Shown piece after piece: positions 1 to 42,576 of a stretch of DNA of 64,000 nucleotides. This DNA comes from an uncultured Muribaculaceae bacterium (GTDB lineage Bacteria > Bacteroidota > Bacteroidia > Bacteroidales > Muribaculaceae), in the NCBI GenBank assembly GCA_944321715.1, contig CALUMJ010000008.1, positions 30,532 to 94,531 on the forward strand, written 5' to 3'. Position numbers and translations under genes: made by a program. How positions within the stretch are numbered: the first letter of the stretch is position 1; the number at the start of each line of letters is the position of its first letter. The notes below the pieces were generated by a model. The model saw nothing but the letters and a program-made list of their open reading frames with translations, was not told where the DNA came from and made no database searches.

Positions 1-64
1 TTCTTAGTGGCTGTTATTGGATTCCTTTGTATATTTACAGAATGCTAACGAAATACTAAGCACC

Positions 65-1879
65 ATGACAACCGAATTTGTTTACAGCATTGAAAATATT
101 TTCTCAGATGGTCCTGGCTCGGTATTCCATTTTACCAAGACTACAATGTATTACATCGGTCCTTATCAACGAAGTTACAAATGGAAGTCGAGAAATGATT
201 ATGACCAAGTTCCGCAGTTGCTCAACGACATCAACGAAGCTTTTGATAACAAATTGCCCGAATATTTCCTACAATACATTACCGTTAAAGCCGACAATAG
301 CAACAAGTGGATAGAAGTCATCGACGGCCAGCAACGTCTCACCACATTAGCAATAATTTTCTATCTATTGGGACAAACCGACAGCAAATATAATATCGCA
401 GCCAACAAGCTGAACTATTCGCGGTATGCCAATGGCAACATTTTTGACAAAGTGTGCGATATGTGCTACAACACTCCTCCCGACGACGACAAAGCGATTG
501 AAGAGCAAGACCTGTACTACATGGTCACCGCGGCAAGACGCATCAAAGATGAAATTGCCAAATGGGGAAGCGACAAAATAGATTACCTGCTCCACAATGT
601 GAAATTCATAGTCAACATTGAGAGCAATTTCGTTTCGTCGGAGGAGATTTTCGCGAACCTCAACGACAACCACGTGCCGCTCACCGATGCCTACCTAATC
701 AAAGGACTCTTGTTGACCAATGCCGTGAGCCGCACCAACAGTTACGGGCGTAGTTTGGAATACAGTGAAATACAAGAGAAGCGGAAAATACTGGGGCGCA
801 TGTGGGACGAGATGCAAACATGGATAATGCAAAACCAGCATTGCCACTTCTTCTTCAAAAGTCCCAATGCCAACACTGGCATGGAATACCTGCTTGAGAT
901 GGCATTATGCCACAAATACGGCGACACTTTTGTGGGAGATTACGGACCCGACAAATACCTCAACCTTTTTAACCGTTACAACAGCAAAATTAAGGACACC
1001 GCCGAAGCCATTGAAATGATTGCCGCCATCAAGCACATTTATAAAAAGATGAAAACTATCTATGGTGGCATACTATACAACTTGTGGGGGTTTATACAGT
1101 TTAGCGTACCTACCAAGAACAAAGCTTCGCTCAATATGTATGCTTTTATCGACAAGTCGGAAACCGAACTTTTGCATTACCTGAAAGATGAAGCGATTAA
1201 AAGGATACCCGATTTATCAATCCCTGAATTTAGCGCAAACAATTATGAAAAATTGCGTTACAAGTCCTATAATCCGTATCTTACAAACCTGCTTCTTTCG
1301 TTCAGCGTTTTTATCCCGTGGAAAAACGAACGCGAATTTCGATTCCGATTCTATGATTATGAAATCTCGGACTGGAGTTTCGAACACATTTCTCCTCAAA
1401 ATCCAAAAGATTCAATCACCGTACCCGACTATGCACGGACATTTGTTCTGAACCATGTTGACAAACAGATAAAAGAAGGTACCAATGAGAGTGCAACCAT
1501 TGAATTAAAGGAATTGAGAGAAAGAATTGCAAATGGAGAAAAAATAGACACAGCCGACATCGAATTTCTTTTCGATTCGGGCATCGATGAGCACTCGCTC
1601 GGCAACATGGCTCTCCTATCACGGAAAGACAACAGCGCCAACAATAACAACCCTTTCATGGTAAAAAAATTAATCATACAAAAACGCAAAGGGTTGGGGG
1701 CGTTTATTCCAAATCACACCTACGAAGTGTTTAACAAAATCCTCGTGTCGCCCGATGCCGAAAAGCCATTCTCGGCCGAGTCGATAATCTGGAACAAAGA
1801 AGATGTCGAAGCCCACATAAGATGGATGGAACAGGCAAACAGTGAAATAATCAACTGGATAAACAACTTGAATATATGA
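65..1879 (+). CDS. DUF262/DUF1524 (GmrSD-like) protein, first gene of a pair
   Basis: The protein combines an N-terminal DUF262 domain, recognised by DGQQRLTT at about residues 87-94, with a C-terminal DUF1524 HNH-type nuclease domain. The latter shows EHISPQ (candidate catalytic His near 441), LGN near 512-514 and an Asn-rich NPF segment after it. In the known GmrSD and BrxU families DUF262 binds and hydrolyses nucleotide and DUF1524 cuts modified phage DNA. I chose the ATG at 65; a TTG at 17 is in frame but adds 16 residues unlike the family, and an in-frame stop lies at 5-7, so the gene is complete here. It overlaps the next gene by four bases (ATGA), which suggests translational coupling. 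Family assignment is firm; an antiphage role and the target are inferred. Confidence 0.85.
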   Translation: MTTEFVYSIENIFSDGPGSVFHFTKTTMYYIGPYQRSYKWKSRNDYDQVPQLLNDINEAFDNKLPEYFLQYITVKADNSNKWIEVIDGQQRLTTLAIIFYLLGQTDSKYNIAANKLNYSRYANGNIFDKVCDMCYNTPPDDDKAIEEQDLYYMVTAARRIKDEIAKWGSDKIDYLLHNVKFIVNIESNFVSSEEIFANLNDNHVPLTDAYLIKGLLLTNAVSRTNSYGRSLEYSEIQEKRKILGRMWDEMQTWIMQNQHCHFFFKSPNANTGMEYLLEMALCHKYGDTFVGDYGPDKYLNLFNRYNSKIKDTAEAIEMIAAIKHIYKKMKTIYGGILYNLWGFIQFSVPTKNKASLNMYAFIDKSETELLHYLKDEAIKRIPDLSIPEFSANNYEKLRYKSYNPYLTNLLLSFSVFIPWKNEREFRFRFYDYEISDWSFEHISPQNPKDSITVPDYARTFVLNHVDKQIKEGTNESATIELKELRERIANGEKIDTADIEFLFDSGIDEHSLGNMALLSRKDNSANNNNPFMVKKLIIQKRKGLGAFIPNHTYEVFNKILVSPDAEKPFSAESIIWNKEDVEAHIRWMEQANSEIINWINNLNI

Positions 1880-4347
1880 AAACAGGACGCTACAACATAT
1901 CACAGCTGCTAACTGCACCAGAGATTGAACAAATAGTAATTCCCGAGCTGCAACGAGATTATGTTTGGAAGAAGCGCAATGTCAGAGGCTTATTATCCTC
2001 TATTTTGGGTAACTTCAATTCCAAAGAAACGCAAATCCTCAATATCAAGGATGGCAATGGCGATGCATTAGATAGCGACATCGAAAAGTACCTTAGTGAA
2101 GAATACATGCGCTTACGCTACAACACACGCATAGGATTCATATATGCCTACCACGACTTGTCGCTGCCCGGGCAATACTACTTGATTGACGGCCAACAGC
2201 GCATCACTACAATATTCCTACTTCTGCTGTCGCTTTACAAGACGTATGACCCACAAACGTTTAGAAACAAGTATTTCCACAAACGCATACCCAAGCTCGA
2301 CTACAAGGTGCGTGAAATAGCCCACGACTTCTTGGTTGACTTCATCGAATTTGAATTAAGCCAAAACGATGGCGAGAAGTTTGAAAAGAGCAACCGTTAC
2401 TATATCGAATATGATACCGACATAACCTGCAAGTCGATACTCAGCAATTATAATGTTATCGTCAAGGAGGTTGAAGGTGTAGATGCTGCGCAACTCATAG
2501 ATTATGTTGAGAATTATGTCGAATTTAATTATTTCGACACTAACATGAGCCAACAGGGCGAGAAACTATACTTGTACATGAACAGCCGCGGCGAACCGCT
2601 GTCGGTGCAAGAACGCATAAAATCGATAATTGTCAGCCGAAGCAATGACAAATTAAAGTCAGGTGAATACTGGGAAGATTGGCAAAATTTCTTCTGGCGA
2701 CTGAAATCGCCGAACGACGAAAATGCCGACAGAGGTTTCTTTGAATTTATAAAATGGGCCGTCATAATGCACCTGCACACCTATCCTCCAAAAAGCATTG
2801 AAGAAATTGAAGATTACATCAGAATAGAGAAAAACAACGAGAAAAAAACGCGGCAAGAAGACTTGATAAGCACTTATGTCACTGAAAATAAAGATTTCAC
2901 ATTCCTCTGGCTGCAACAGGTCGAGCAAGCCGTGGAACGATTGCATGTGCTGATGCACACCTCCCCGGCATTTCGACTTTATGGATTCAGTGGCGAACAA
3001 TGGTTCAATGGCTGTGACAACACCATTGATTACGTGGCACTTATAGGTGTGCTTTATTACATAGTGTTGTTACCAGGCGCAACCGATTTGAACGTGTTGC
3101 GCATGGCAATGTATCTCAAGAATTTAAAGTCGGAATACACTCTTCGCCGTAATCCCGACCGTGCAGTGATACGATGCATGGATTTGATAAGGTGGTGCGC
3201 AATCAATGGTATTGTAGATGTCAGGTTGATTGGCAAATATTTTTCCATGCATAGTTTTGACTTTTCCGACACATACGTCTTGCGCCCCGATGACTTACGT
3301 TTTGGCTATTACTTAATAGACTGGCAAGAAAGCCAGTCGGCACACCCGAAATGCGACGAAATTGGACGATGGGAAACTTTCTTCTGGTCAATTACGAACG
3401 ACAAGGAATTAAACGACTTCTTGCGTGGCAACCACGATTTCATCATACGCCTGATGCGGCACGGCGGTGCAACGCCCGAAGAGTATTTGCAACGTTTCAA
3501 GAACAAAATATACCAGCATCGGAATTCCGACGAACTGCGCCGCTCGCTCTTGAAATATGGCGACATTTCAATATATGACTACGGAGGAAGCTGGAAATTG
3601 AAAATATGGATGGAACGATGGTGTATGCTGCGCAACGAACGTGACGAACCCTACTGGGACAAATTCATGACTGGCGACAATGCCGAAAAGAACGCCACAA
3701 TTGTAGCAAACTACCTTTTTGATAACACGGCAGCGATGGCTCAAGACTACTTATTAGATAGCATAGGCACAAACTTAGATTACATGACTCAAAAATACTA
3801 TTTGTGGTATGAAAAAGAGAATGAGCGAACACGAGTCGTGCTACTTAAAGCCAAGCAAGCGGCGGAAAACAAGGCAAGGGAATTATGCATCCAAGAGCTG
3901 CACAAGCAAATTAGCGAAAGCTGGATGTGGCAGCATAATTTCTGCGTGTTTGATTTCAAGCCCTCCGGCAATGGCTTAGTTGCATCGAGAAGCGACCAGC
4001 GCAACGACTATTACATCGATATATGGTATGACTGGTTTCCCGACGGCGGGAAGTGGTATTGTCGCATAGGACACAGGCTTGGAGGCACGTTGCCCGAAGC
4101 CTTTGTCGATGCGCTACGCGACAAAGTCACACATATATGCAATACCCCAATAGAGTGGATATGCGACGACGAATCTAAATTAATCGCCATCAAAAACCCG
4201 ATTTACTTCGAACGACCCGATGAAGATTATTTCAGCGGAACGAAGTTCGCAAAGCAGTTTTTCGACGAGTTGTGGGGCATCTTGCAAGATATGAACGCCC
4301 AAAGGTTGCTAAACGAAACCCGACTGGGCGGTGGTGAGTCAGTCTAA
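1876..4347 (+). CDS. DUF262-domain protein, second gene of the pair, long C-terminal region unrecognised
   Basis: This 823-residue protein has an N-terminal DUF262 domain with ELQRDYVWKK near residues 23-32 and IDGQQRITT near 104-112. I see no HNH/DUF1524 signature of the EHISPQ type. The roughly 450 residues after the DUF262 core are helix-rich and rich in Trp, Tyr and charged residues, and I cannot name a domain; the last 130 residues (around NDYYIDIWYDWFPDGG) could be a separate sensor or effector fold. The start overlaps the stop of the upstream DUF262 gene by four bases, so the two are probably made together. The 3' end overlaps that of convergent mutS2 by nine bases. Probable function: NTPase/sensor subunit of a two-protein GmrSD-like defence system, by inference from domain and pairing. 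Confidence 0.8.
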   Translation: MKTGRYNISQLLTAPEIEQIVIPELQRDYVWKKRNVRGLLSSILGNFNSKETQILNIKDGNGDALDSDIEKYLSEEYMRLRYNTRIGFIYAYHDLSLPGQYYLIDGQQRITTIFLLLLSLYKTYDPQTFRNKYFHKRIPKLDYKVREIAHDFLVDFIEFELSQNDGEKFEKSNRYYIEYDTDITCKSILSNYNVIVKEVEGVDAAQLIDYVENYVEFNYFDTNMSQQGEKLYLYMNSRGEPLSVQERIKSIIVSRSNDKLKSGEYWEDWQNFFWRLKSPNDENADRGFFEFIKWAVIMHLHTYPPKSIEEIEDYIRIEKNNEKKTRQEDLISTYVTENKDFTFLWLQQVEQAVERLHVLMHTSPAFRLYGFSGEQWFNGCDNTIDYVALIGVLYYIVLLPGATDLNVLRMAMYLKNLKSEYTLRRNPDRAVIRCMDLIRWCAINGIVDVRLIGKYFSMHSFDFSDTYVLRPDDLRFGYYLIDWQESQSAHPKCDEIGRWETFFWSITNDKELNDFLRGNHDFIIRLMRHGGATPEEYLQRFKNKIYQHRNSDELRRSLLKYGDISIYDYGGSWKLKIWMERWCMLRNERDEPYWDKFMTGDNAEKNATIVANYLFDNTAAMAQDYLLDSIGTNLDYMTQKYYLWYEKENERTRVVLLKAKQAAENKARELCIQELHKQISESWMWQHNFCVFDFKPSGNGLVASRSDQRNDYYIDIWYDWFPDGGKWYCRIGHRLGGTLPEAFVDALRDKVTHICNTPIEWICDDESKLIAIKNPIYFERPDEDYFSGTKFAKQFFDELWGILQDMNAQRLLNETRLGGGESV

Positions 4348-6852: not shown

Positions 6853-7689
6853 TTAATCAAATTTTTTGCGGCGGAACACGAAGTTGCGACCCAAGTATTT
6901 TTCTCTCACGATGGGATTTTCGGCAAGTTCCTCGCTCGTACCTTGAAACAATATTTTACCCTCAAACAGCAAGTATGCACGGTCGGTGATGCTCAACGTT
7001 TCGGGAGCGTTGTGGTCGGTGATGAGAATGCCTATATTTTTCTCTTTCAGCTTATATACAATGTACTGAATGTCTTCCACAGCAATTGGGTCAACGCCGG
7101 CGAACGGCTCGTCGAGCATGATAAATTTGGGGTTGATGGCAAGGCAACGCGCAATCTCGCAACGACGGCGCTCGCCACCCGACAACTGATCGCCAAGGTT
7201 TTTACGCACTTTCTGTATGCGGAACTCCGACAGCAGGCTTTCCAACTTTTCGCGTTGGTACTCGGGCGAGGTATTGGTCATCTCAAGCACAGCACGGATG
7301 TTGTTCTCCACACTCAGCTTGCGAAACACCGACGGCTCTTGCGGCAGATAGCCTATGCCATATTTCGCACGTTTGTAAACCGGATATTTCGTGATGTTGT
7401 GGTCGTTGAGGAATATGTTGCCCTCGTTGGGCGTGATGAGCCCCGTGGTCATATAGAATGTAGTTGTCTTGCCAGCACCGTTGGGTCCGAGCAATCCTAC
7501 AATTTCACCCTGCCTTACGTTGATTGAAACATGGTTGGCAACCGTGCGTTGGCGGTATTTCTTCACCAGCCCCTCGGTGCATAGCACCATATTGCCGTCA
7601 TCGGCCAACGACTCGGCGCGCAATTGTTCTTCTTCTAATCTTTCTTCTTTGTTAAAAATCTTGTCTATCCACTTACATTTAAAAGCCAT
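6853..7689 (-). CDS. lptB: LPS export ABC transporter ATP-binding protein LptB
   Basis: LptB is the cytoplasmic ATPase that powers LptFG extraction of lipopolysaccharide from the inner membrane. The sequence shows Walker A GPNGAGKT (about 66-73), the LptB-like segment around GIGYLPQEPSVFRKL, the ABC signature LSGGERRR, Walker B IMLDEPFAGVDP and the switch His in ITDHN. Compared with E. coli LptB (about 241 residues) there is an N-terminal extension of about 33 residues; a Met at 34 (MVLCTEGLVKKY) is where homology begins, so initiation there is possible. It starts 15 bases after the end of udk and is probably co-transcribed with it. Confidence 0.93.
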   Translation of the reverse strand: MAFKCKWIDKIFNKEERLEEEQLRAESLADDGNMVLCTEGLVKKYRQRTVANHVSINVRQGEIVGLLGPNGAGKTTTFYMTTGLITPNEGNIFLNDHNITKYPVYKRAKYGIGYLPQEPSVFRKLSVENNIRAVLEMTNTSPEYQREKLESLLSEFRIQKVRKNLGDQLSGGERRRCEIARCLAINPKFIMLDEPFAGVDPIAVEDIQYIVYKLKEKNIGILITDHNAPETLSITDRAYLLFEGKILFQGTSEELAENPIVREKYLGRNFVFRRKKFD

Positions 7690-7704
7690 CGTAAAAATAT
7701 GTTT

Positions 7705-8325
7705 TTATGGATTGCTCTTCCTCAATCGACTCTTTATATAATCGGTGAGCAGGTTGATTGCCACCTCGTTGTTACCCCCTTGCGGCACAATCAAGTCGGC
7801 ATAACGCTTGGCAGGCTCGATATACTGGTTGTGCATCGGTTTCAACACGCGCTCATAACGGTCTATTACCATTTGCGGGGTGCGTCCGCGTTCTATGCAA
7901 TCGCGATAAATCACCCGTATCAGCCTGTCGTCGGCATCGGCATCGACAAACACCTTTATGTCCATCATGTCGCGCAACTTGGAATCGGAAAACACCAATA
8001 TTCCCTCAATCAACACTACGTCGTGAGGGTCGAGATGCACGGTTTCTTTTTGGCGGGTGCAGGTGAGGAACGAGTAAGTGGGCATTTCGACCGACTGTCC
8101 TGCACGGAGCTTGTTCAAATGCTCAAAAAGCAAGTCCCAGTCAAACGCCCCAGGTTCGTCAAAGTTGATTTTCTGCCTGTCCTCGACAGGCACATGGCTC
8201 GAATCCTTGTAATACGAGTCTTGCGAAATCACACCAACCTGCCCCGCGGGCATCCGCTCCATTATCTTGTTGACGACAGTGGTTTTCCCCGACCCGGTAC
8301 CACCTGCAATTCCGATTATTATCAT
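7705..8325 (-). CDS. udk: Uridine kinase
   Basis: Uridine/cytidine kinase of pyrimidine salvage, phosphorylating uridine or cytidine to the monophosphate. The P-loop GGTGSGKTT lies at the N terminus, followed by SQDSYYKD and the substrate-region motif NFDEPGAFDWDL. I place the start at the ATG at 8325, giving 206 residues, the usual family size; a start at 8385 would add 20 unrelated residues and would run across the predicted promoter at 8356-8363. First gene of a probable udk-lptB-mutS2 operon. Confidence 0.94.
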   Translation of the reverse strand: MIIIGIAGGTGSGKTTVVNKIMERMPAGQVGVISQDSYYKDSSHVPVEDRQKINFDEPGAFDWDLLFEHLNKLRAGQSVEMPTYSFLTCTRQKETVHLDPHDVVLIEGILVFSDSKLRDMMDIKVFVDADADDRLIRVIYRDCIERGRTPQMVIDRYERVLKPMHNQYIEPAKRYADLIVPQGGNNEVAINLLTDYIKSRLRKSNP

Positions 8326-8355
8326 TCTACAAAAGTGTAAACAATTTATATCGTA

Positions 8356-8363
8356 CAAAGTTA
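8356..8363 (-). promoter_or_regulatory. Promoter -7 box for udk
   Basis: On the minus strand this reads TAACTTTG, an exact match to the Bacteroidetes -7 consensus TAnnTTTG. It sits 30 bases before the chosen udk ATG, which supports that start. Confidence 0.6.
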
Positions 8364-8609
8364 CTGCAACTTGTGTGTAGTGCAAAACAATTTAGCCAAA
8401 AAATTTCCGCACCAATTCCATAGCCCATTCAAAAAAGAAGTAAGCAAAAGATTTCATATAACACACGGCCATTTGGTGAATGTCGGGGCAACGAAGACAT
8501 CCAACCATGCGCCAACTGGCGGTGACACAGCAGTTGGGCGGCTTCACCATCCACACCCAGTGTCGTTTTAAATGAAAGAACCGTATTCTGGCACACCAAA
8601 TGGTTTTAA

Positions 8610-8790
8610 AAACTGTTTTGAATTTTTACAGATAATTACATGTAAGGCTCTTTGTTCATGTTCGAGCGTCTTTTAGGCCGTTTTTTGATTGTTTTTTCGA
8701 CGTTTGTTTCACTAAACTTACACAAAAAACAATCACAACCGACTCGAAAATCCATCTCTAACCATTGAACAAAAAAGCAAAACAGTTTCT
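8610..8790. repeat. MITE-like inverted-repeat element, copy 1
   Basis: The element is bounded by AAACTGTTTTG on the left and CAAAACAGTTTCT on the right. It has no coding capacity. Read on the minus strand it matches 39096-39282 along most of its length, with shared internal blocks (GAGATGGATTTTCGAG, AAAAGACGCTC, CATGAACAAAGA). The end sequences and size resemble a non-autonomous transposable element or a BIME-like repeat; I see no target-site duplication clear enough to prove transposition. Confidence 0.65.
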
Positions 8791-8827
8791 GAAAGTGTAA
8801 GATATTTTTATATTTATTTTTTATCAT

Positions 8828-8835
8828 TAATTTTG
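8828..8835 (+). promoter_or_regulatory. Candidate -7 box for the FG-GAP gene
   Basis: TAATTTTG matches TAnnTTTG and lies 116 bases before the ATG at 8952. I find no clear -33 TTG at the usual spacing, so support is moderate. Confidence 0.4.
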
Positions 8836-9125
8836 TCGCACACAAATTTCTAACTGTGAAAACTTATAACAGTGGTAGTAATTTAACATGAAATTGGCTT
8901 TTTGCGTTCAGCAAAATCAAAAAGCGGTAACAACCAATCAATATAAAAGATATGAGTAACATTAAAGGACGATGGGTTTTAACCCTTATTTTCATTTTAG
9001 GCTATATGCTGCCCGGCCGGGCGGCGACCGTCGAAGTCGAATTCACAGTCGATGGCGTGAGCTATTATGGCACTAATAACGGTGTAAAAGCCTAAGTCAG
9101 GGCGACGGCAGCCACTGGTGAGGTA

Positions 9126-10736
9126 GTGTACGTACCTGGCGAGGTGGAATACGACGGAAGCACTTACACTGTGACTTCTTTGGGTAATAAAACAAGTAAA
9201 AGAGGTTCAATCATCTTAACTGCGTTTGATGCCCCAGACATGCAGAAACTCACTACTCAAGTTACGAGTATAGTTCTTAACAATAAGTCACCACTTCTGA
9301 CAGAAATAGAAACAGAAAAGGAAGCCACGATTAACATAGGTGGCAGCGACACTGGCTTGAGTGTACCCACATTGACCGTCAAAGGGGCTGGAGGCACGAT
9401 TTCATTGAATTATGCAACGGAGGGAATTGTCTATTTGCAAGATTTGGTGTTCGATTGCGACACGGCCGGTATCACAAGAGCGTCACGCACAGGTTACGAA
9501 TATGCCGACTTATACCGTGTCGGCAAAGCCACGTTGACCGAAAATGTCAAAGTGGTGAAAGCATCCTTTTCAATGGTCGAAGAGCTTGCTGTAGCCAATG
9601 AAGAATTTGAACGAATCTACGATAATGCTTTCAGTTCGTGCAACTTAGAGCGGCTCAAAGTGAACAGCAACACCGGCAGCACCGCATTGCAAAATGCAGT
9701 GATTGGCTGGCTCGATGTGTCGGAAAATATTGAATACCCGCTCAACATGCAATCAATCGGCACACTTTATGTCGGCGATGATGTGGTTACTTATTATATT
9801 CCGAAGGATTACACCACCATACCCGAAAAATTTGAGGGAGCATCACTGCTTACATTGGTCTATCCCGAAAATATGGCCGGGGTGAAATATTCGTCGTGGT
9901 ATGATTTCGACGGCGACGGTATTATGTCTATTGTTAACGGATACGAATATAACTATAACGAAAACTACGGCAACGTTTATAGCCCCGATATAGAGTATGA
10001 ATACAGCTTTGGCGGCAAGCTCGATAGTAATGTTTCCAAATGGATTTCCCGCACTGTGGATTACGACAATTCAGGGGTGCCTACGATTTTCTTCAGCAAC
10101 AAAGATGCTTTCAAATATGACGGCGACGGAGGATTCAACAAGGTGGAATTCCCCGAAGGATATTTACTGCTCGATGCCGACAACAACGGCCTGACCGACA
10201 TACTCACGGCCGAAGGTTCGGACTTATACATCAACTACCGGCAGACCGACGGCGACTACATGAAGAGCAAGCTGCGGCTGACGACCAACAAGGAAGATGT
10301 TTACAACGCCACTTACCAAGTATCGGGCAACTGGGGCGACAACTTGCCATCGCTCAGCGACGGTTGGATGATTTGGGGCAGCACGAGTCCATCGTCGTAC
10401 ACCGACATAACGCTTGCCGTCGATTTGAACAAAGACGGCATTCCCGACCTTATCGACAACAATATCGGCGGAATACTGTATAACATAGGAGGCACCGACT
10501 ATTACTCCAGCCCCGAGAAGGGCGAAATACACCAGTGCGACTTGAACGGCGACGGTGTACTCGACTATGTGCTGTTTGACGACAGCGAGAGCAAGGTGTA
10601 TCTCATGATGTACCAGCAAGACGGCTCGTATTCGCAACAGTTGCTGATTGAAAACAACAGCGTCAGCAACTTGTGGTGCAAAGATTTCGACCACGACGGC
10701 GACATAGATATATTGTTGCCTATCGATTATACCTAA
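9126..10736 (+). CDS. Middle fragment of the interrupted FG-GAP protein
   Basis: This open stretch lies between the two TAA codons; in-frame codons continue back to 9096, and the GTG at 9126 is only the first possible start. It lacks a signal peptide of its own, so as a separate gene it would make a cytoplasmic protein, which argues against independence. It holds the BspA-like beginning, a leucine-rich-like stretch near 9570-9680, and four or five acidic calcium-loop motifs from about 9900 onward (DADNNGLTDI, DLNKDGIPDL, DLNGDGVLDY, DFDHDGDIDIL). Best treated as part of the 8952-14771 gene. Confidence 0.35.
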   Translation: MYVPGEVEYDGSTYTVTSLGNKTSKRGSIILTAFDAPDMQKLTTQVTSIVLNNKSPLLTEIETEKEATINIGGSDTGLSVPTLTVKGAGGTISLNYATEGIVYLQDLVFDCDTAGITRASRTGYEYADLYRVGKATLTENVKVVKASFSMVEELAVANEEFERIYDNAFSSCNLERLKVNSNTGSTALQNAVIGWLDVSENIEYPLNMQSIGTLYVGDDVVTYYIPKDYTTIPEKFEGASLLTLVYPENMAGVKYSSWYDFDGDGIMSIVNGYEYNYNENYGNVYSPDIEYEYSFGGKLDSNVSKWISRTVDYDNSGVPTIFFSNKDAFKYDGDGGFNKVEFPEGYLLLDADNNGLTDILTAEGSDLYINYRQTDGDYMKSKLRLTTNKEDVYNATYQVSGNWGDNLPSLSDGWMIWGSTSPSSYTDITLAVDLNKDGIPDLIDNNIGGILYNIGGTDYYSSPEKGEIHQCDLNGDGVLDYVLFDDSESKVYLMMYQQDGSYSQQLLIENNSVSNLWCKDFDHDGDIDILLPIDYT

Positions 10737-10802
10737 AGCAACGGTTTCAGTCTGCTTGCCTACTTCATCAATGAAGGCAACGGTAATTTCAAACGCCGTG
10801 AA

Positions 10803-13800
10803 GTGTCGTTCGCGGGCAATAATTATCAATTCATCGGATGCCACGACTTGGATGCCGACGGGTTGTATGAGATAATTGCGGTCGAGAAAGAGAATTACAA
10901 TAAGGAACACACGGTGCTGCTTGATTGTGAAAGCGATTTTGCCTCGTTCAAAGCAATAATCCTTAATGACCAATGCTCGTCTTACTCTGACTACAATGGA
11001 GGCCACTTCTACTTCTACACGCTCGGTGACGTTGACAACGACGGATTTACCGATTTCTATTACAACAGAAACAACCAAATCGGCAGAGGGTTAAGATTTA
11101 CCGATAAGCAGAACACCGCACCCAGCAAGATGGATGCCCCGGTAGCCTACTACGACAGCGAAAAAGGCAAGCTGCACATAACATGGGCCGAAGGAAGCGA
11201 TGCCGAAACATCGGCCTGCGACCTCACCTACGAGTTGCGCATAGGCTCGGCACCGGGCAAAGCCGACATTCTTGCCACCAACTCGCTTACCGACGGCCGC
11301 CGACGTACTCTCGAAGATGGCAACATGGGCCGCAATCTCTACAACTTGTTCAACACTTCGGCAATGGACGAGGGCACTTACTACATAGCCGTGCAGGCCA
11401 TCGATGCCGCCGGTTTGGGCGGTGCGTGGTCCGACGAGGCTGTTTACAACCACAAGAAAGCCACGGCCGATTTCAGCATCAGCCATTCGGAGATGTGCAC
11501 TGCCGACACCCTGCAATTGATGGCCCGCAAAATCGACGGCGCAACATATAAATGGAATGTGGGCGACGGCATCATTATCAGCGAGGACGACAACCGTGCC
11601 GAAGTGACATTTAGTAGCTATGGCGAACGTAAAATCGGGCTGACCGTAACACTTGCCGACGGCGGAACGCTCACTGCCGAGAGCAAGCCAGTAAAGGTGC
11701 TGATGTTCAAGAGCACTTATTCCTATGAAGACTTATTACCTGTTTATTATGGTGATTTTAATTTCGACGGGAATATCGATGGATTAGATACTTCTTACGG
11801 AATGCTATCAAACGACAGCAAAGCGACATTCTCAAAAGTCGCAAAACTCTACAACACCGACTTGAAAGGCACCGTATATGGCATTCTCGATTTCAACAAG
11901 GATGGATATTTAGATTTCATGATTAATGCCGACAAAGGCAACGTGTTCATCAACAGCGGCTACGACGACTTCAGCTTTGAATACAGCACGAAAGAGCTTG
12001 TGATGAACAACTCAAGCCGCCCCTATCCAAACGGATTGATGCTTGGCGACATGAACAATGACGGCTATCCAGAGTGGTTTTCAGACACAGGAACCCATGG
12101 TAACCCATGCTATCTGAACGGAGGCGACAACCTCACTTTCACACAAGTTGAAAGTTTTGAAATTCCCGACGAAGAAAATCCAGAAAAAACTATAGAATTA
12201 GGCGTGGAATATTATCACGACATCAACCGTGACGGCTTTATCGACGCAATAGTGACGCGTTACAATTCCACCGAAAACACTGTGAAAAAATATGCTTTGC
12301 TGAAAGATGCCACAGGCGACTTCTCATTTGAAGATGCCAAGTTGATGTTTAAAATCGACAATGTTGAGTATGGATATGGACTCAACACATATTTCTGCGA
12401 CCTCAACAGCGACGGCTATTTGGATTTGTTATCCCGCCGCTCGGGCGAGAACTTTTTTCGAGTGATTCCCGGGAAGCCCATGAGCGAATGGCCGTGTACC
12501 GAAGAGGTGCAAATTCCGCTTGTCGGCGATTATGAATTTTCGATGGAGTATTCCGACGCATATTTGCTACTTCACGATTTCGACAACAACGGCTATCCCG
12601 ACATCCCGTTGAACGCCGAGGACCCTGCCGGCTCGGAAGCAATGCCCACGCAGGCAATATTGCTCATGCAACCCGGCTTCAAGGCCGAACTGTGCCGCAT
12701 AGATGGCGACTACCGTGATGCGTCGTTGCCGTTCATTTCGCTGGCCGATGGGTCATATCCGCAAATGGGCGATTATGAGCGAACAACTGGCAAGAGCGAC
12801 AACCAAGCCCCGGAACGCCCGACCAACGTGATGGCCAAGCAGACGGCCGACGGACTGCTCATCACGTGGAGCGACGCTCAAGACGACCACACACTGCCAA
12901 TGCAAATGCAGTATAACGTGAGTGTAAAGAAAAAAGGTGCTACCGGAGAAGGCAGCTTCGTAATTTCGCCGATGAACGCCCTTGCCGATGCCGCCACAGT
13001 TGTGCCAAACTACATGTACAAGAAATCGACTCGCATGACCGTGCCGATAGAATTCCTTGAAGCAGGGCAAACCTACGAGGTGCAAATACAGGCAATCGAC
13101 GCATTCAACGAGCATTCGCCTATGACCACCCCGGTAGATGTCACAATCAATGCGGCAGGATATGTCAACGCTGCCGACAAGGTGGCGAAAGGCGCTGAAA
13201 CCACGCTGAAATATGTCGGCACACAGGCCGTGGCATTCAGCTACGACTTAGTCGGTGGAACATTGGTTGCCGACAAGGGCAACGGTGAAATCACGGCCCG
13301 GTGGAACGAGCCGGGAGTGAAAAACATCACTCTCACAGCCGATGGCGTGAAAATCTACTCGGCCATAACTGTTGTCGATTTGCTCGATGTCGATTTCACA
13401 TTGCCGCAAAACCCGCTTGCCGGAGCACCGATAGAGGTGGCCGTGCCTGAGGTTATGCTCGACGCTTCGCACAATTGCGGATTCCGCTGCGACGACGGAA
13501 ACGTGACAATCGAATGGGAACAGGGCGACGAAACGGCAGTGATAACTTTCGCCGAAACTGGAACATACACCATAGAGGCATACATCGAAGACAGCATTCA
13601 AGGCAACGTGTGCCGCCGCGAAGCCATCGTGACCGAGGTCATGCCATTGGCCGAAATCACTGGCGTGACGGCCGATGCCACGGGCCACTACACTATATGC
13701 TGGAACACCACAAGTGTGCCGCAACAGGTGACGAAAGTGCTGGTAAGCAAGGAAACCAGCCGCTTGGACGTGTATGAAATTATCGGCGAGGTAAATCTGT

Positions 13801-14771
13801 CGGACGGCTCGCTGACCGATACCGAATCAAACCCGTCGGTGAAGTCGGAACGCTACATAATCAACCTCATTGCTGCCAACGGACAGAAGAGCCTTGCAAG
13901 CGATGCACACAAGCCGCTCCACGTGATGATTAACCATGCGGTGGCTGGAGGCTACAACCTGATGTGGAACCAATACGAGGGCGTAGAAGTGGACTACTAC
14001 ACGATTTTGCGCGGAACGTCGGCCGACAACCTGGTGGAACTTACCGAAATCGCCGGCAGCCAGCAAAACTACACCGACCTCTCGGCTCCTGAAGGCGAGA
14101 TGTATTATGCCGTCACTTTCGCGCCGACTGCCACCGAGATGCTGCGTAGCAAAGCGGCAGGACGGACAACGGCAACTGTACGCTCCAACGTGGTTGCGAC
14201 AAGTGAAGCAGTCGCCACGACATACGCCGAGTCGATGCAAATCTTCTCGGTTGAACCCGAGATGGAACTCACACGCGAACAAGGGTCGCTACACCTGTTT
14301 GTCGAAATGCAACCGCTATCTGCTACATTCAACCGTGTGGCTTGGTCTATCATCGAAGGTGCAGAATTGGCCACACTCGACAACAACGGCTTGCTCACGG
14401 CCACAAGCGGCAACCCTGCTGGCACAATAGTGGTGCGCGCAACGGCACTCGACGGTTCGGGGTTGATTGCCGAAGCCACCATAGCATGTGAAGAAGACGC
14501 AGGGTCATCGACCGAACTGATAGACTACAACGACGGCGATTGGCAGCTGAAAGTGGTCAACGACCGCAGCAGCCTGCGGCTCTCGGGCTGGAACGAAGGC
14601 CAGGAAGTGGCCATCTACGTGGTTTCGATGCAAGGCCAACTGTTGGATGTTGTACGCACATCCGACTCGCAAGTCGAAATCGACTGCAGCCGCTACGCTA
14701 TTGGTTTCTATGTAGTAAAAGCCATCTCGGCCGGCGAAGCCAAAGCGGTGAAATTCATGATGCAGCATTGA
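10803..14771 (+). CDS. C-terminal fragment of the interrupted FG-GAP protein
   Basis: In-frame codons begin at 10737 directly after the second TAA; GTG 10803 is the first possible start and would remove part of an ongoing repeat. Contents: more FG-GAP/VCBS calcium loops (DLDADGLYEI, DVDNDGFTDF, then a second block at about 11750-12640), fibronectin III-like domains near 11130-11430 and 12800-13140, PKD/Ig-like modules around 11460-11700 and 13200-13640, more fibronectin III-like sequence to about 14200, a Big_2-like domain near 14270-14500, and a type IX-like C-terminal sorting domain over the last 80 residues. No signal peptide, so not a plausible free-standing secreted protein. Confidence 0.4.
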   Translation: MSFAGNNYQFIGCHDLDADGLYEIIAVEKENYNKEHTVLLDCESDFASFKAIILNDQCSSYSDYNGGHFYFYTLGDVDNDGFTDFYYNRNNQIGRGLRFTDKQNTAPSKMDAPVAYYDSEKGKLHITWAEGSDAETSACDLTYELRIGSAPGKADILATNSLTDGRRRTLEDGNMGRNLYNLFNTSAMDEGTYYIAVQAIDAAGLGGAWSDEAVYNHKKATADFSISHSEMCTADTLQLMARKIDGATYKWNVGDGIIISEDDNRAEVTFSSYGERKIGLTVTLADGGTLTAESKPVKVLMFKSTYSYEDLLPVYYGDFNFDGNIDGLDTSYGMLSNDSKATFSKVAKLYNTDLKGTVYGILDFNKDGYLDFMINADKGNVFINSGYDDFSFEYSTKELVMNNSSRPYPNGLMLGDMNNDGYPEWFSDTGTHGNPCYLNGGDNLTFTQVESFEIPDEENPEKTIELGVEYYHDINRDGFIDAIVTRYNSTENTVKKYALLKDATGDFSFEDAKLMFKIDNVEYGYGLNTYFCDLNSDGYLDLLSRRSGENFFRVIPGKPMSEWPCTEEVQIPLVGDYEFSMEYSDAYLLLHDFDNNGYPDIPLNAEDPAGSEAMPTQAILLMQPGFKAELCRIDGDYRDASLPFISLADGSYPQMGDYERTTGKSDNQAPERPTNVMAKQTADGLLITWSDAQDDHTLPMQMQYNVSVKKKGATGEGSFVISPMNALADAATVVPNYMYKKSTRMTVPIEFLEAGQTYEVQIQAIDAFNEHSPMTTPVDVTINAAGYVNAADKVAKGAETTLKYVGTQAVAFSYDLVGGTLVADKGNGEITARWNEPGVKNITLTADGVKIYSAITVVDLLDVDFTLPQNPLAGAPIEVAVPEVMLDASHNCGFRCDDGNVTIEWEQGDETAVITFAETGTYTIEAYIEDSIQGNVCRREAIVTEVMPLAEITGVTADATGHYTICWNTTSVPQQVTKVLVSKETSRLDVYEIIGEVNLSDGSLTDTESNPSVKSERYIINLIAANGQKSLASDAHKPLHVMINHAVAGGYNLMWNQYEGVEVDYYTILRGTSADNLVELTEIAGSQQNYTDLSAPEGEMYYAVTFAPTATEMLRSKAAGRTTATVRSNVVATSEAVATTYAESMQIFSVEPEMELTREQGSLHLFVEMQPLSATFNRVAWSIIEGAELATLDNNGLLTATSGNPAGTIVVRATALDGSGLIAEATIACEEDAGSSTELIDYNDGDWQLKVVNDRSSLRLSGWNEGQEVAIYVVSMQGQLLDVVRTSDSQVEIDCSRYAIGFYVVKAISAGEAKAVKFMMQH

Positions 14772-14800
14772 AAGCCCTGAAATAGACAACCTACAAAAAA

Positions 14801-14840
14801 GAACGTGCATGGAGAGGAATTTTCCATGCACGTTCTTTTT
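14801..14840 (+). terminator. Rho-independent terminator after the FG-GAP gene
   Basis: A perfect 13-bp stem (GAACGTGCATGGA and TCCATGCACGTTC) with a nine-base loop is followed by five T. It ends the FG-GAP gene and isolates it from the cydAB promoter downstream. Confidence 0.85.
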
Positions 14841-18832: not shown

Positions 18833-20887
18833 ATGATAAAAGACATTATAACTGCCAACAGCGGCATCGCCGCAGGAACAAAAGAAATTGAAATATTAAG
18901 GCAAAATTTCCCCGCGTGTTTCCATGCCGACGGAGCTTTCGACATCGAAAGACTGCGCGAATATCTGAAAGACAAAGTAGAAGTGACCGACGAGGGTTAT
19001 GAACTACGTTTCCTCGGGAAAAACTATGCGCGGCTGCTCGCTCAGCTCGACACGACGACCGTCATAGTTCCCGATGAGAAACACAACAGCTTGCCTGAAA
19101 ACGTCGACAGCAAAAACATATACATCAGCGGCGACAACTTGGATGCCCTCAAGCACCTGCTCAAGTCATACGCCGGAGTCATAAAGTGCATATACATCGA
19201 CCCACCGTACAATACCGGGTCGGACGAATTTGTCTATACCGACAATTTCAACTTCACCGCCGAAGAGCTGGCCGACAAGCTAAGCATTCCCGAAGGTCAA
19301 GCCAGACGCATTCTTGACCTTGCGCGCCGCGGCTCTTCAACCCACTCGGCATGGCTGATGTTCATGCTGCCACGCCTTATGCTTGCCCGCGACCTGCTGT
19401 CAAGCGACGGCGTTATCTTCATCTCCATCGACGACAACGAACAAAGCAACCTGCGGCTGCTCTGCGACGACATCTTCGGCGAAGAAAACATGATTGCCAA
19501 TATCATAGTGCAAGCCAACAAACGTGGGCAAACATACAAACAAATTGCCAAAACTCATGAATATCTCTTGCTTTACGCTAAATCGGAAAATTCAGTAATT
19601 AACGAGCTTAAAAAAGAAATATCAGGCGATTTAAAAAAGGATGACATTAGTGAGTATTCCGAAAGAGAACTAAGGAATCGCAATCCTAAATATGGTAGGT
19701 TTAATCGTCCTAACCTTTTTTATCCAATTTATGTGAACCCTAATAGCTGTGATGCAAATGGTTATTCCCCAGTGTCAACGACTCGTAATGCCGATTTTTG
19801 CCTCCCTGTTTTGCCGTATAACAGCGAGGGCGGCGAAAGCTGCTGGAGGTGGGGTACTCGAAAACTCGAAACAAACAACGACACCAATACCATGGTGAGC
19901 AATATAGTTGCCCGGAAGAAAGTGTCGGGAGAATATGGTATATATGAAAAATACCGAAAAGGAACATACAAGGCAAAGACCATTTGGTTTGAAACTGCCA
20001 TTCTCGATGACGACGATGATGAAGACTCTTTAGACCCCCTTACTTGGGACGAAACAGGAGTTATTACCGAACAAGGCACTTCCGAATTGGGAAAGCTCGG
20101 CATGGCCAATACTTTTGACTTTCCCAAACCGACTTACTTGATAAAGAAAATATTGACAATCGGCTCCGACCTAGATTCTATTTGCCTTGACTTCTTTTCC
20201 GGGTCAGGTACTTTTGCCGATGCCGTTATGCAATTGAACGCCGAGAACGGCAATAGAAGGTATATCGCAGTTCAGCTACCCGCCAACCTCGACATTCGCT
20301 TTACCGAAGCCAAAGCCTCCGATAAACCCAAAATCAAGCAGACAATCGAGTTCCTTGAAACCAACGGGTACCCACACACGTTGGATTATGTAGGATTTGA
20401 GCGCATACGCCGGGCTGCGGAGAAAATCCGCAAGGAAAATCCGCTGTTCAGCGGCGACCTCGGGTTCAAGCACTTCACGCTGAAAGAACCCACTACGCAA
20501 GCCATCGAGCGGATGGAAGCGTTCGACCCGCACTCGACGTTCGGCGACGAAACCCTCGTTGATGAGTTCGGCATTCCTTCCATTCTCACCACATGGCTCG
20601 TGCGCGATGGCTACGGCCTTACGCCCGAAGTGACCACACTCGACCTTGCCGGATATGAAGCCTACTACATCGGCAACCACCTATACATCATCAATCCCAA
20701 CCCGACCGAAGATGCCGTTGCCGCCCTGCTGTGCCGTTACCAGACCGAAGCCGGCTTCAATCCTCAAAACGTTGTCGTGTATGGCTATTCCCTGTCGTGG
20801 AACGAGCTGCAAGGCCTCAAGGACAACCTCGGCACCGTGCAAGCCGGCGAGAAGAATATGCGCATCAACTTTGACATTAGATATTGA
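18833..20887 (+). CDS. mod: Type III restriction-modification methyltransferase (Mod)
   Basis: Mod recognises the asymmetric site and methylates adenine N6; with Res it forms the restriction complex. The 684-residue protein has DPPYNTGSDEF (motif IV, residues 123-133) ahead of the SAM motif DFFSGSGT (about 453-460), the order of beta-class methylases typical of type III. The intervening target-recognition region, around 19590-20150, is visibly richer in A+T than either flank, as expected if it was exchanged by recombination. The reading frame is intact and I find no simple-sequence tract that would suggest phase variation. Res begins seven bases after the stop. Confidence 0.93.
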   Translation: MIKDIITANSGIAAGTKEIEILRQNFPACFHADGAFDIERLREYLKDKVEVTDEGYELRFLGKNYARLLAQLDTTTVIVPDEKHNSLPENVDSKNIYISGDNLDALKHLLKSYAGVIKCIYIDPPYNTGSDEFVYTDNFNFTAEELADKLSIPEGQARRILDLARRGSSTHSAWLMFMLPRLMLARDLLSSDGVIFISIDDNEQSNLRLLCDDIFGEENMIANIIVQANKRGQTYKQIAKTHEYLLLYAKSENSVINELKKEISGDLKKDDISEYSERELRNRNPKYGRFNRPNLFYPIYVNPNSCDANGYSPVSTTRNADFCLPVLPYNSEGGESCWRWGTRKLETNNDTNTMVSNIVARKKVSGEYGIYEKYRKGTYKAKTIWFETAILDDDDDEDSLDPLTWDETGVITEQGTSELGKLGMANTFDFPKPTYLIKKILTIGSDLDSICLDFFSGSGTFADAVMQLNAENGNRRYIAVQLPANLDIRFTEAKASDKPKIKQTIEFLETNGYPHTLDYVGFERIRRAAEKIRKENPLFSGDLGFKHFTLKEPTTQAIERMEAFDPHSTFGDETLVDEFGIPSILTTWLVRDGYGLTPEVTTLDLAGYEAYYIGNHLYIINPNPTEDAVAALLCRYQTEAGFNPQNVVVYGYSLSWNELQGLKDNLGTVQAGEKNMRINFDIRY

Positions 20888-20894
20888 GAACGCC

Positions 20895-23882
20895 ATGGAA
20901 CTAATCCTACAACCGTCACTGCCACACCAGCAAAAGGCCGTCGATGCCGTTGCCGATGTTTTTGCCGGAGTCCCCATCGTGCCGCCAGCGGTGTATTACG
21001 CTAACCCGGTCGTTGACTTGTCGCACAGCGGGCTGGCAGCCAACATTGCGGCCATACAATCCCGCAACGGAATTGCCGCCTGCAACGCCGCCTACACGCA
21101 CGACCCCGAGTGCCTCAACATCGACATAAAGATGGAAACAGGCACGGGCAAGACCTACGTCTATGTCCACACCATGCACGAGTTGCACAAGCGGTATGGC
21201 ATCAACAAGTTTATCGTGGCCGTTCCGTCGCTCGCAATCAAGACGGGGGCAAGGCAATTCATGGACGACGAGTATGTGAAACGCCATTTCCGCGACGTGT
21301 GCGGATATGGTACCGAAATCGAGCTGCTCACGCTCGACACGCCCAAGAAAAAGAAGAAAGGCCGCCAATATTTTCCGGCGGCAGTGAGCGAATTTGTCAA
21401 AGGGTCGAACCGCAATTCTGGCAAGATTTACGTTCTGCTCGTTAATATGCAACTGCTCAAAGTCGCAAAGAACTATATGCTCAGCCGTGACGACTATGGA
21501 AGCGTGGTCGAGGGCTTTTACCGACCGTTCGATGCCTTGCGAGCCACTCGCCCTTTCTTAATCATCGACGAGCCTCACAAATTTGCCATCGACCAAAAGG
21601 CATTCGGCGTAATCAAGAGCGAAATTGCTCCGCAGTGCGTCATCAGGTATGGCGCAACGTTCCCCGAAGTGGCAATAGGCCGAGGACGGGAGAAGAAAAC
21701 CATTCGCCAGTATGCCAACTTGCTATACGACCTCAATGCCTGCCAAGCATTCAACCAAGGATTAATCAAGGGGGTGGCAAAAGAACACTTCGAACCCATT
21801 TCAAAGAAAAGCGGGAAAGTGAAGCTGCTGGGCGCAAAGAAAAACGAAACAGCCACATTCCAATACTGGCAAGCCGACACTAAACGCACCTACCAATTGC
21901 GCGTCAACGACCCTCTGTCAATCATCGACGAGGAGTTTAACGGCATCACCGTGCAAGCAATCGGCAATAGCTGCGTTGAACTTTCAAATGGGCAGACAAA
22001 GAACACAGGCGAAGTGATGGACGTGGACGTGTACATGAATTCCTACCAGGAACAGATGCTGCGGCTCGCCCTGCAACGGCACTTTGAAACCGAGCGTGAA
22101 AACTTCTCGGGACGCAAATTTAAAATCAAGACACTCGCACTGTTTTTCATCGACGACATAGCATCATACCGCCCCGATGCCGAGAGTGGCAAGCGGCCCT
22201 ACCTGCTCGAAGCATTTGAGCGGCTGTTGAAAGAAATGCTTGAAAAGACAATATCGCAACTCGACGAGAATGAAAATGAATACCGCACTTTTCTCGAAGC
22301 AAGCCTCGCAAATATAGAAGCGTGCCACGGCGGATATTTCGCCCAAGACAACAGCTCGTCGGACGAGAAAATAGCCGAAGAAGTGGACGACATACTAAAG
22401 GGCAAGAAGCAATTGCTATCTTTCAAGGACAGCGAGGGCAACTATGTATTGCGCCGTTTTTTGTTCTCGAAGTGGACGCTCAAGGAGGGCTGGGACAACC
22501 CCAACGTTTTCACCATTGCGAAACTGCGTTCAAGCGGCAGCGAAACATCAAAGCTGCAAGAAGTGGGACGCGGCCTGCGCCTACCTGTGGACGAATGCGG
22601 CAACCGCATCGCCAATCAGGAGTTCACGCTCAACTACATCGTTGACTTCTCCGAAGCCGACTTTGCCAACAAACTCGTCGAGCAAATCAACGGAGAGGTT
22701 CCCGAAACACTTGCGGTGACACTCTATCAAATCAAGGCAGTCGCAGAAAAAATGCACATCGCAGACAGGCAGCTCCTTGCTGACCTGCTCATAAAGGAAT
22801 ACATAAATAGCGATTTTACAATCGTCCAGCAAAACCGTACCCGTTTCTTCGAAGAATATCCATTATTCAGCACCGGGGTCAATGCACAGAAAATCAAAGA
22901 CCGTAACAAAGCGGCAGCCAGCAAGCCGGTGGGCATTCGCAAAGCTCGCTATGCCGAAATTGCAGAATTGTGGAATATCTTGAACCAGCAATACACCATC
23001 TGGTATGACAGCCAGCTCAACACGATGCTCGATGCCGCATTGCTCGACATATTAAACTCGGGCAACACACTGTCGCAACAAGTCATTTCGAGCCACCGGG
23101 AAATCGTCAAAAGCGATGGTAACCATGTAACGGCGCAAACGGGCAGCGGCTCACAATACGCCGTCGCCCGCACGATGCCCTACGGATTGTTCCTAAAGCG
23201 AATTTCAGGTGCGACCAATGTTCCAGCCACCACCCTGCACCGGGCAATAAAAATATATGCCGAAACACATGGCGCAATCGACAACACGCATTTCAACGAG
23301 CAATCGGCCAGCTACATCATAAGCCGATTTGCCGACTGGAAAACATCAAACCTCTACGGCTATTTCAGATACAAAAAGACCAATGCGCCCACAGCAGCAA
23401 CAGTCCTCACACACGCCGACGGCTCGATGCGCAACGAAATCGCACAAGGGCGCATAGGCACCAAGGTGCAGGAAGGCGAACCCATGGAGAAATACCTGTA
23501 TGACACCAAGGCATACGACTCGCCGCTGGAACTCGAAAACATCAATGCAGATATTGCCGAAGTCGTCGTGTATGGCAAAATCCCTCGCAGCAGCATTGCC
23601 ATTCCCACCATCACCGGCGACACCTATAGCCCCGACTTCATGTATGTGGTCAAGAAAAACAACGGCGAAAAAGAACTGAACATTGTGGTCGAAACCAAAG
23701 ACGTTGAAAACAAGTCAACACTCCGTGGAACAGAAGAGGTCAAAATCAAGTGCGCCGAGGTATTCTTCCAAAACCTGTCGGCACAAGGCTTCACCGTCCG
23801 TTTCAAGACGCAGTTAAACAACACGAAGATGCTGGAAATCGTCAACGAAGTGCTACACTCCGACACTGCAAGCGATAAATAA
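20895..23882 (+). CDS. res: Type III restriction enzyme Res subunit
   Basis: Res is the ATP-dependent helicase/translocase and nuclease of the type III system. Visible motifs: Walker A METGTGKT (residues 80-87), DEPH at 225-228 in place of DEAD/DEAH as usual for this family, a helicase motif VI-like QEVGRGLRLPV, and near the C terminus a PD-(D/E)xK nuclease core with SPDF (Asp914) and ETK (933-935). I start at ATG 20895, directly after mod; the frame is open further upstream but that is the shadow of mod. 995 residues, normal length and intact. Confidence 0.93.
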   Translation: MELILQPSLPHQQKAVDAVADVFAGVPIVPPAVYYANPVVDLSHSGLAANIAAIQSRNGIAACNAAYTHDPECLNIDIKMETGTGKTYVYVHTMHELHKRYGINKFIVAVPSLAIKTGARQFMDDEYVKRHFRDVCGYGTEIELLTLDTPKKKKKGRQYFPAAVSEFVKGSNRNSGKIYVLLVNMQLLKVAKNYMLSRDDYGSVVEGFYRPFDALRATRPFLIIDEPHKFAIDQKAFGVIKSEIAPQCVIRYGATFPEVAIGRGREKKTIRQYANLLYDLNACQAFNQGLIKGVAKEHFEPISKKSGKVKLLGAKKNETATFQYWQADTKRTYQLRVNDPLSIIDEEFNGITVQAIGNSCVELSNGQTKNTGEVMDVDVYMNSYQEQMLRLALQRHFETERENFSGRKFKIKTLALFFIDDIASYRPDAESGKRPYLLEAFERLLKEMLEKTISQLDENENEYRTFLEASLANIEACHGGYFAQDNSSSDEKIAEEVDDILKGKKQLLSFKDSEGNYVLRRFLFSKWTLKEGWDNPNVFTIAKLRSSGSETSKLQEVGRGLRLPVDECGNRIANQEFTLNYIVDFSEADFANKLVEQINGEVPETLAVTLYQIKAVAEKMHIADRQLLADLLIKEYINSDFTIVQQNRTRFFEEYPLFSTGVNAQKIKDRNKAAASKPVGIRKARYAEIAELWNILNQQYTIWYDSQLNTMLDAALLDILNSGNTLSQQVISSHREIVKSDGNHVTAQTGSGSQYAVARTMPYGLFLKRISGATNVPATTLHRAIKIYAETHGAIDNTHFNEQSASYIISRFADWKTSNLYGYFRYKKTNAPTAATVLTHADGSMRNEIAQGRIGTKVQEGEPMEKYLYDTKAYDSPLELENINADIAEVVVYGKIPRSSIAIPTITGDTYSPDFMYVVKKNNGEKELNIVVETKDVENKSTLRGTEEVKIKCAEVFFQNLSAQGFTVRFKTQLNNTKMLEIVNEVLHSDTASDK

Positions 23883-41700: not shown

Positions 41701-42576
41701 ATGTGGGTACTACTTGCCGTGGCATCGGCTTTATGCCTTGGATTTTACGATGTGTTCAAGAAACTGTCGGTTACGGCCAACAATGTCCTCACCGTGTTGC
41801 TGCTCAACACGCTGTTCGGCACATTGCTCATGTCGCCAGTCATCGTCACCGACATTGCCACTGGCGATATGGGGCTTGGCGGCAACCTCACAGGGCATCT
41901 GCTCATAGCCTTGAAATCGGCTATCGTACTGTCGTCATGGATATTAGGCTACTTCAGCATAAAGCATCTGCCGCTCACTATAACAGGCCCCATCAATGCC
42001 ACACGCCCGGTGCTGGTGCTTATAGGTGCCTTGCTACTGTTTGGCGAGAGGCTCAACACCATGCAATGGGGCGGAATACTGCTGGGCTTCGTGTCGCTCT
42101 ACTTGGTGAGCCGCATAGGCAAGAAAGAAGGGCATTCAATCATACACGACCGATGGCTGTGGATGGGAATAGGCGCAATGGTGATGGGTGCAATCAGCGG
42201 ATTGTATGACAAATGGCTCCTGCAAACCTACCAGCCGCTGCAAGTGCAGGCGTGGCACTCGCTCTACCAATTGGTGATTATGGGCGCGACAGTGCTGGCA
42301 CTAAAAAAGACCGGACACGACCCCACACCGTTCCACTGGAAATGGACAATACCCTGCATCTCCATTTTCCTCACAGTCGCCGATATGGCATATTTCTATG
42401 CCCTGTCGCTCGACGGCTCGATGATAAGCATCGTGTCGATGATTAGGCGTGGCAGTGTGATTGTGTCGTTCCTGTTCGGTGCAATTGTTCTCCACGAAAA
42501 GAACCTGCGACTGAAACTCATCGACTTGTCGGTGCTGCTCGCAGGGCTTATACTACTTGTCATTGGAAGCAAATAG
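41701..42576 (+). CDS. EamA/DMT-family transporter
   Basis: A 291-residue integral membrane protein with about ten hydrophobic helices in two homologous halves, the EamA pattern (first half ends near SRIGKKEG, second begins WLWMGIGAMVMGAISG). Family members export or exchange metabolites; the substrate cannot be deduced. I start at ATG 41701; a TTG two codons upstream is less likely. rpiB follows 18 bases later and is probably co-transcribed. Confidence 0.87.
   Translation: MWVLLAVASALCLGFYDVFKKLSVTANNVLTVLLLNTLFGTLLMSPVIVTDIATGDMGLGGNLTGHLLIALKSAIVLSSWILGYFSIKHLPLTITGPINATRPVLVLIGALLLFGERLNTMQWGGILLGFVSLYLVSRIGKKEGHSIIHDRWLWMGIGAMVMGAISGLYDKWLLQTYQPLQVQAWHSLYQLVIMGATVLALKKTGHDPTPFHWKWTIPCISIFLTVADMAYFYALSLDGSMISIVSMIRRGSVIVSFLFGAIVLHEKNLRLKLIDLSVLLAGLILLVIGSK

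Follow-up and report, generated by a model that had tools for sequence, protein, structure and literature searches.

In-frame stop codons in bacterial genes have been described in PMC7918605, the available part of which presents them as persisting mostly as population polymorphisms. The nonsense-inactivated genes of that source, as far as this part goes, have in-frame stops within a well-kept reading frame, and these stops are not common to other species. The gene analysed here, carried by a window of 64,000 nucleotides (the whole stretch of DNA under analysis) from an uncultured Muribaculaceae bacterium, has the same two traits; it departs from the young pseudogenes found in the available part of PMC7918605 in having two stops, not one, and in being an unusually long surface-protein gene. 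The other system close to it is the T9SS type A cargo with FG-GAP, PKD and fn3 domains of the Bacteroidales. With such cargo the window gene shares a signal peptide, FG-GAP_3, PKD, fn3 and Big_2 domains, a Por_Secre_tail-like tail and the presence of sprA in the genome; it differs in being interrupted and in having a tail that scores below both curated cut-offs. A search of the available papers found none linking FG-GAP with T9SS or with Muribaculaceae. For the interruption we consider an ordinary and very recent nonsense inactivation, fixed or polymorphic and coming after normal purifying selection, to be the probable explanation.

The interrupted gene occupies positions 8952-14771 of the + strand (1,939 codons before the terminal stop at 14769-14771 in the translation), and was assigned, from its translation, Pfam matches and homologues, to a secreted protein that combines FG-GAP, PKD, fn3 and Big_2 domains and ends in a T9SS-like tail. 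Its features, all on the + strand, are arranged as follows. A signal peptide, MSNIKGRWVLTLIFILGYMLPGRAA, read by eye and not called by a prediction tool, spans 8952-9026 and resembles those of the homologues in G087, a genome from another genus of the family, and G007, a genome of the same genus. The head region (9027-9880), common to G087, gives a weak LRR_5 match and is beta-rich in a structure model of the G087 counterpart; it is followed by a first FG-GAP repeat block (9881-11090, limits approximate) placed by Pfam and alignment. The first in-frame TAA, codon 48 (9093-9095), falls in the head; the second, codon 595 (10734-10736), falls in the FG-GAP block, with FG-GAP_3 matches in Pfam on both sides of it. 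The remainder (10737-14768) is open over 1,344 codons and contains the remaining FG-GAP repeats, PKD, a second FG-GAP block, fn3 (24.9 bits for a cut-off of 25), Big_2 (19.6 bits for a cut-off of 22.8) and a weak Por_Secre_tail. The sorting tail stays under both curated cut-offs, with 20.5 bits for PF18962 Por_Secre_tail (cut-off 27) and 18.4 bits for TIGR04183 (cut-off 23); the tail of the G007 homologue scored 29.1 bits in one search and 24.6 bits in another, and the tail of a further homologue, G003:C8, 46.7 bits. The source genome carries an intact gene for the T9SS translocon, sprA (TIGR04189 SprA, 2,786.7 bits; a frame of 2,494 aa with no stop), and loss of the T9SS machine is thus not the cause of the gene's inactivation. 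A perfect 18-nt inverted repeat, terminator-like, lies at 14796-14840, 25 bases 3' of the gene. At the other end, the -7-like motif TAATTTTG at 8828 was rejected as evidence: the window contains 51 matches to it for 41 expected.

Translation of 8952-14771 confirmed what the earlier note had read from the sequence, namely a frame interrupted by exactly two in-frame TAA codons and otherwise unbroken, with no frameshift. The CCTAAR context said to be common to both stops is also correct (GCC TAA G at 9093, ACC TAA A at 10734); this context, picked after the data had been seen, fits 18 of the gene's 316 TAA-reachable codons. With the codons that the gene has, a random point mutation creates a stop in 3.0-4.3% of cases, and TAA makes up 39-42% of these stops; the probability that both stops are TAA is then 0.16-0.18, which is no remarkable coincidence. 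The origin of both stops in CAA codons, as had been proposed, found no backing in the alignments, where neither site holds a glutamine codon in any relative. The first site aligns to a leucine codon of G087, within a poorly alignable stretch, and the second to four different non-glutamine codons in the four aligned relatives. Both sites lie in variable, poorly alignable stretches (for the first stop, a variable stretch of the head). The structure model covers the first 707 residues of the G087 counterpart after the signal peptide; as its quality is middling (mean pLDDT 62.7, pTM 0.44), it was used only for the beta-rich head and for the strands near the second stop: the site aligned to the latter is in a loop that connects strands 549-554 and 564-571, and the site aligned to the first stop is in a low-confidence stretch. 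The exact patterns around the two stops, with N at the stop codon, gave 0 matches each in viral_contigs. A codon-bias scan of the 64 kb, the sensitivity of which is limited (9093, only 47 codons from the start, went unflagged), flagged six stops with coding-like sequence on either side. We read only 10734 as lying inside one gene, the other five being gene ends or antisense frames according to the ORF coordinates (at 42574, Pfam confirms two separate genes); a local cluster of broken genes was rejected on this basis.

The frame is a genuine coding sequence, as judged from its 68% amino acid identity with the G087 homologue across both stop sites and its 70% identity with the G007 homologue across the second. 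The G087 homologue is uninterrupted, with 1,936 aa, and matches the window gene in its head, its FG-GAP blocks and its tail (1,291 identities over 1,899 aligned residues); the G007 homologue is intact, with 1,672 aa, and is devoid of the head (1,151 of 1,648 identical). Over the part after the second stop, identities were 72% (G087) and 71% (G007). Matches to this part with an E value of at most 1e-60 were obtained in 15 of the 397 genomes of the family, the window's own included, at 17 places; at the 16 that are outside the own genome, no stop was found in the matched part. A first scan of genome_contigs, with the window protein alone, returned 18 stretches with no relative among them. The second, using an alignment, returned 74 loci, of which 73 had BLAST matches and one, L206, had no match at the cut-off used. 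Stops within the BLAST matches, which cover only the part homologous to 10737-14768, were found at 0 of the 73 family loci; several of these genes are cut by contig ends, and some of the loci coincide with genes of the G-numbered genomes. Neither window stop is found at the same place in any aligned relative. The earlier note had pointed to frameshifts in relatives as the mark of ordinary decay: there are none in the close relatives, and a change of frame, with matches in two frames, occurs at one of the 73 loci, L199. The latter (match at 7001-11290) is a distant family member with a possible frameshift, from the draft genome of a reindeer gut Bacteroidaceae.

A three-branch codon model over 1,632 codons gave an omega of 0.098 for the window branch versus 0.116 for the two intact genes (2dlnL 1.07), with synonymous sites near saturation, so that branch lengths are rough. 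Fixing the window omega at 0.12 gave a 2dlnL of 2.48, and a value of 0.14 was rejected (2dlnL 7.6). Residues unique to one sequence, the others and outgroup G005 agreeing, amounted over 1,220 sites to 27 for the window's own genome (G000), 28 for G087 and 35 for G007; with G003 as the outgroup (1,545 sites) the counts were 28, 33 and 30, respectively. As omega is not raised on the window branch, constraint lasted until very recently: with a background omega near 0.1, the neutral share of that branch would be at most about 5%. To produce two stops takes about 47-67 point mutations under neutrality, i.e. about 1% of the gene, and about 1% of neutral divergence is too little for the codon model to detect. 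A neutral spell as short as this therefore fits the stops and the undiminished constraint alike. The absence of indels, which the earlier note took as a sign against neutral decay, is real in that none is seen, but it is weaker evidence than was claimed: the probability of two stops as the first two inactivating events goes from 0.53 to 0.04 for assumed indel/substitution ratios of 0.02 to 0.15. The missing frameshifts thus count as no more than mild evidence; under a high indel rate, two stops unaccompanied by other decay would be somewhat improbable (probability of 0.04-0.12 at assumed ratios of 0.1-0.15). Among the options first put forward, very recent inactivation is supported: the relatives are intact and share neither stop, no frameshift is seen, and purifying selection has not slackened on the window branch.

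Under such a recent inactivation, the gene product would have been a T9SS-exported multi-domain surface or secreted protein, kept by normal purifying selection until very recently. Point mutations would then have created the two in-frame TAA codons and inactivated the gene, either throughout the lineage or only in the strain that was sampled. Translation would end at the first stop, 23 codons past the presumed signal peptide, and a downstream restart would give a fragment without signal peptide, not exportable; the second stop would be a second hit, free after the first. We infer that no full-length protein is made, that the two hits came in this order and, given that relatives differ in whether and where they carry surface proteins of this sort, that the loss was neutral or favoured. 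A strain-level on/off polymorphism of the gene, another of the options initially proposed, is compatible with these observations. Judged from the sequence, pseudogene status would be indicated by the two stops alone, there being no frameshift, large deletion or raised omega, and the recency of the loss is read from a single sequence of the species.

The main rival to recent inactivation, an unlikely one in our estimation, is an assembly or strain-mixture artefact: one or two wrong consensus bases, or strain variants joined together, would have generated a gene with both stops that no cell actually carries. The source genome is a draft of 2.8 Mb in 88 contigs, 92.9% complete and with 2.7% contamination, and the gene shows no visible decay besides its stops. 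Moreover, the counts of genes with internal stops shift with assembler and coverage in the available part of PMC11017572; according to the same part, such artefacts are fewest in Illumina assemblies, a point against this rival if the genome was assembled from Illumina reads. An artefact would also require two errors in one gene, yet the rest of the window is without internal stop, as are the genome's 25 SusC-family matches, including 10 full-length ones that pass the cut-off. Another possibility, to which we give very little weight, is that the gene now works as several pieces, each translated on its own, with restarts at, for example, GTG 9126 or GTG 10803. Frames of 536 and 1,322 codons, respectively, are open from these two codons, but neither piece has a signal peptide (as read by eye), so that a T9SS cargo would stay inside the cell, and the second break cuts through an FG-GAP block.

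The clean frame, and an omega as low as in the intact relatives, would also suit programmed or tolerated readthrough at both UAA codons, yielding short and long forms of a working protein. Both stops are in variable stretches tolerant of many residues, and the available part of PMC7918605 makes the case for readthrough at some of the in-frame stops of bacterial genes; in that same part, the short life of most such stops, on the scale of population polymorphism, goes the other way. The 100 nt after the second stop fold better than most shuffles (z -1.95, 5/200 shuffles), a mildly stable fold that is a weak and unspecific sign, and the fold of the 100 nt after the first stop is ordinary (z -0.57). 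Neither stop is common to any relative, and the UUA anticodon of an ochre suppressor is absent from the 38 tRNA genes of the 92.9% complete genome, which falls short of proof given that incompleteness (genes found with the Rfam model and anticodons read by ARAGORN, save for three genes cut by contig ends and read by eye from the Rfam alignments as UAC, GGC and UAA). UAA is normally the least leaky stop, and reading through one ochre codon after another would compound two low efficiencies. The option of a programmed readthrough is thus left with no positive evidence, and readthrough of either kind appears very improbable to us. A lineage-specific double-ochre switch, in which low or conditional readthrough would set the amount of a 1,937-residue T9SS surface protein, would account for a frame as constrained as in the intact relatives; we regard it as equally far-fetched. 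As to a reassignment of the stop codon in the source genome, for which only the two stops themselves could speak, its likelihood is close to nil: TAA terminates 18 of the 43 likely genes of the window, the 10 full-length SusC genes have no internal stop and the UUA anticodon was not found. The exclusion of a code change in the earlier note, made from the gene ends, is therefore upheld. Seven listed T9SS-tail rows of the genus, one of them in the own genome, looked like further internal ochres but were rejected, all seven TAA codons being ordinary terminal stops, which is a further point against reassignment. If due to recent inactivation, the locus would be one more case of a large surface protein lost in gut Bacteroidales, and a caution that clean in-frame stops should not be taken for recoding; should proteomics show the full-length protein, it would be a rare natural case of double ochre readthrough in bacteria.

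The head and the rest of the gene are unevenly distributed. The head (query 9096-9881) is present in 3 of 198 family genomes, including its own: in G087 it is 47% identical over query residues 6-260 and in G054 it is matched weakly (E 1.2e-5); it was not found in the other 8 genomes of the genus. Its GC3 is 0.479 versus 0.609 for the whole gene. This lower GC3, together with its presence in G087 and its absence from the G007 homologue, suggests that heads may be swapped within the family. Within the genus (9 genomes), the part after the second stop has no match in G004 and only a weak one in G006 (E 1.2e-5). Of the seven relatives fetched, the five with at least 9 kb of sequence upstream of cydA have no copy there; the contigs of the other two, L119 and L122, end too near. 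The G007 and G087 homologues sit among other genes than the neighbours of the window gene, and a small gene before cydA is common to the window and G007. From the different neighbourhoods and the lack of a copy at cydA, it follows that the gene varies in presence and place; on this comparison of genomes it is dispensable in the genus.

A type III restriction-modification pair at 18833-23882, made of Mod (EcoP15I-type C-terminal domain) and Res (ResIII and endonuclease domains), is flanked by a UPF0029 gene on one side and the gene of a penicillin-binding protein on the other. These flanking genes are 177-250 bases apart in all six relatives where both were found; the pair was thus either inserted here or lost there. 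At the start of the window, 17-4347, are two tandem GmrSD-type restriction genes overlapping by 4 bases.
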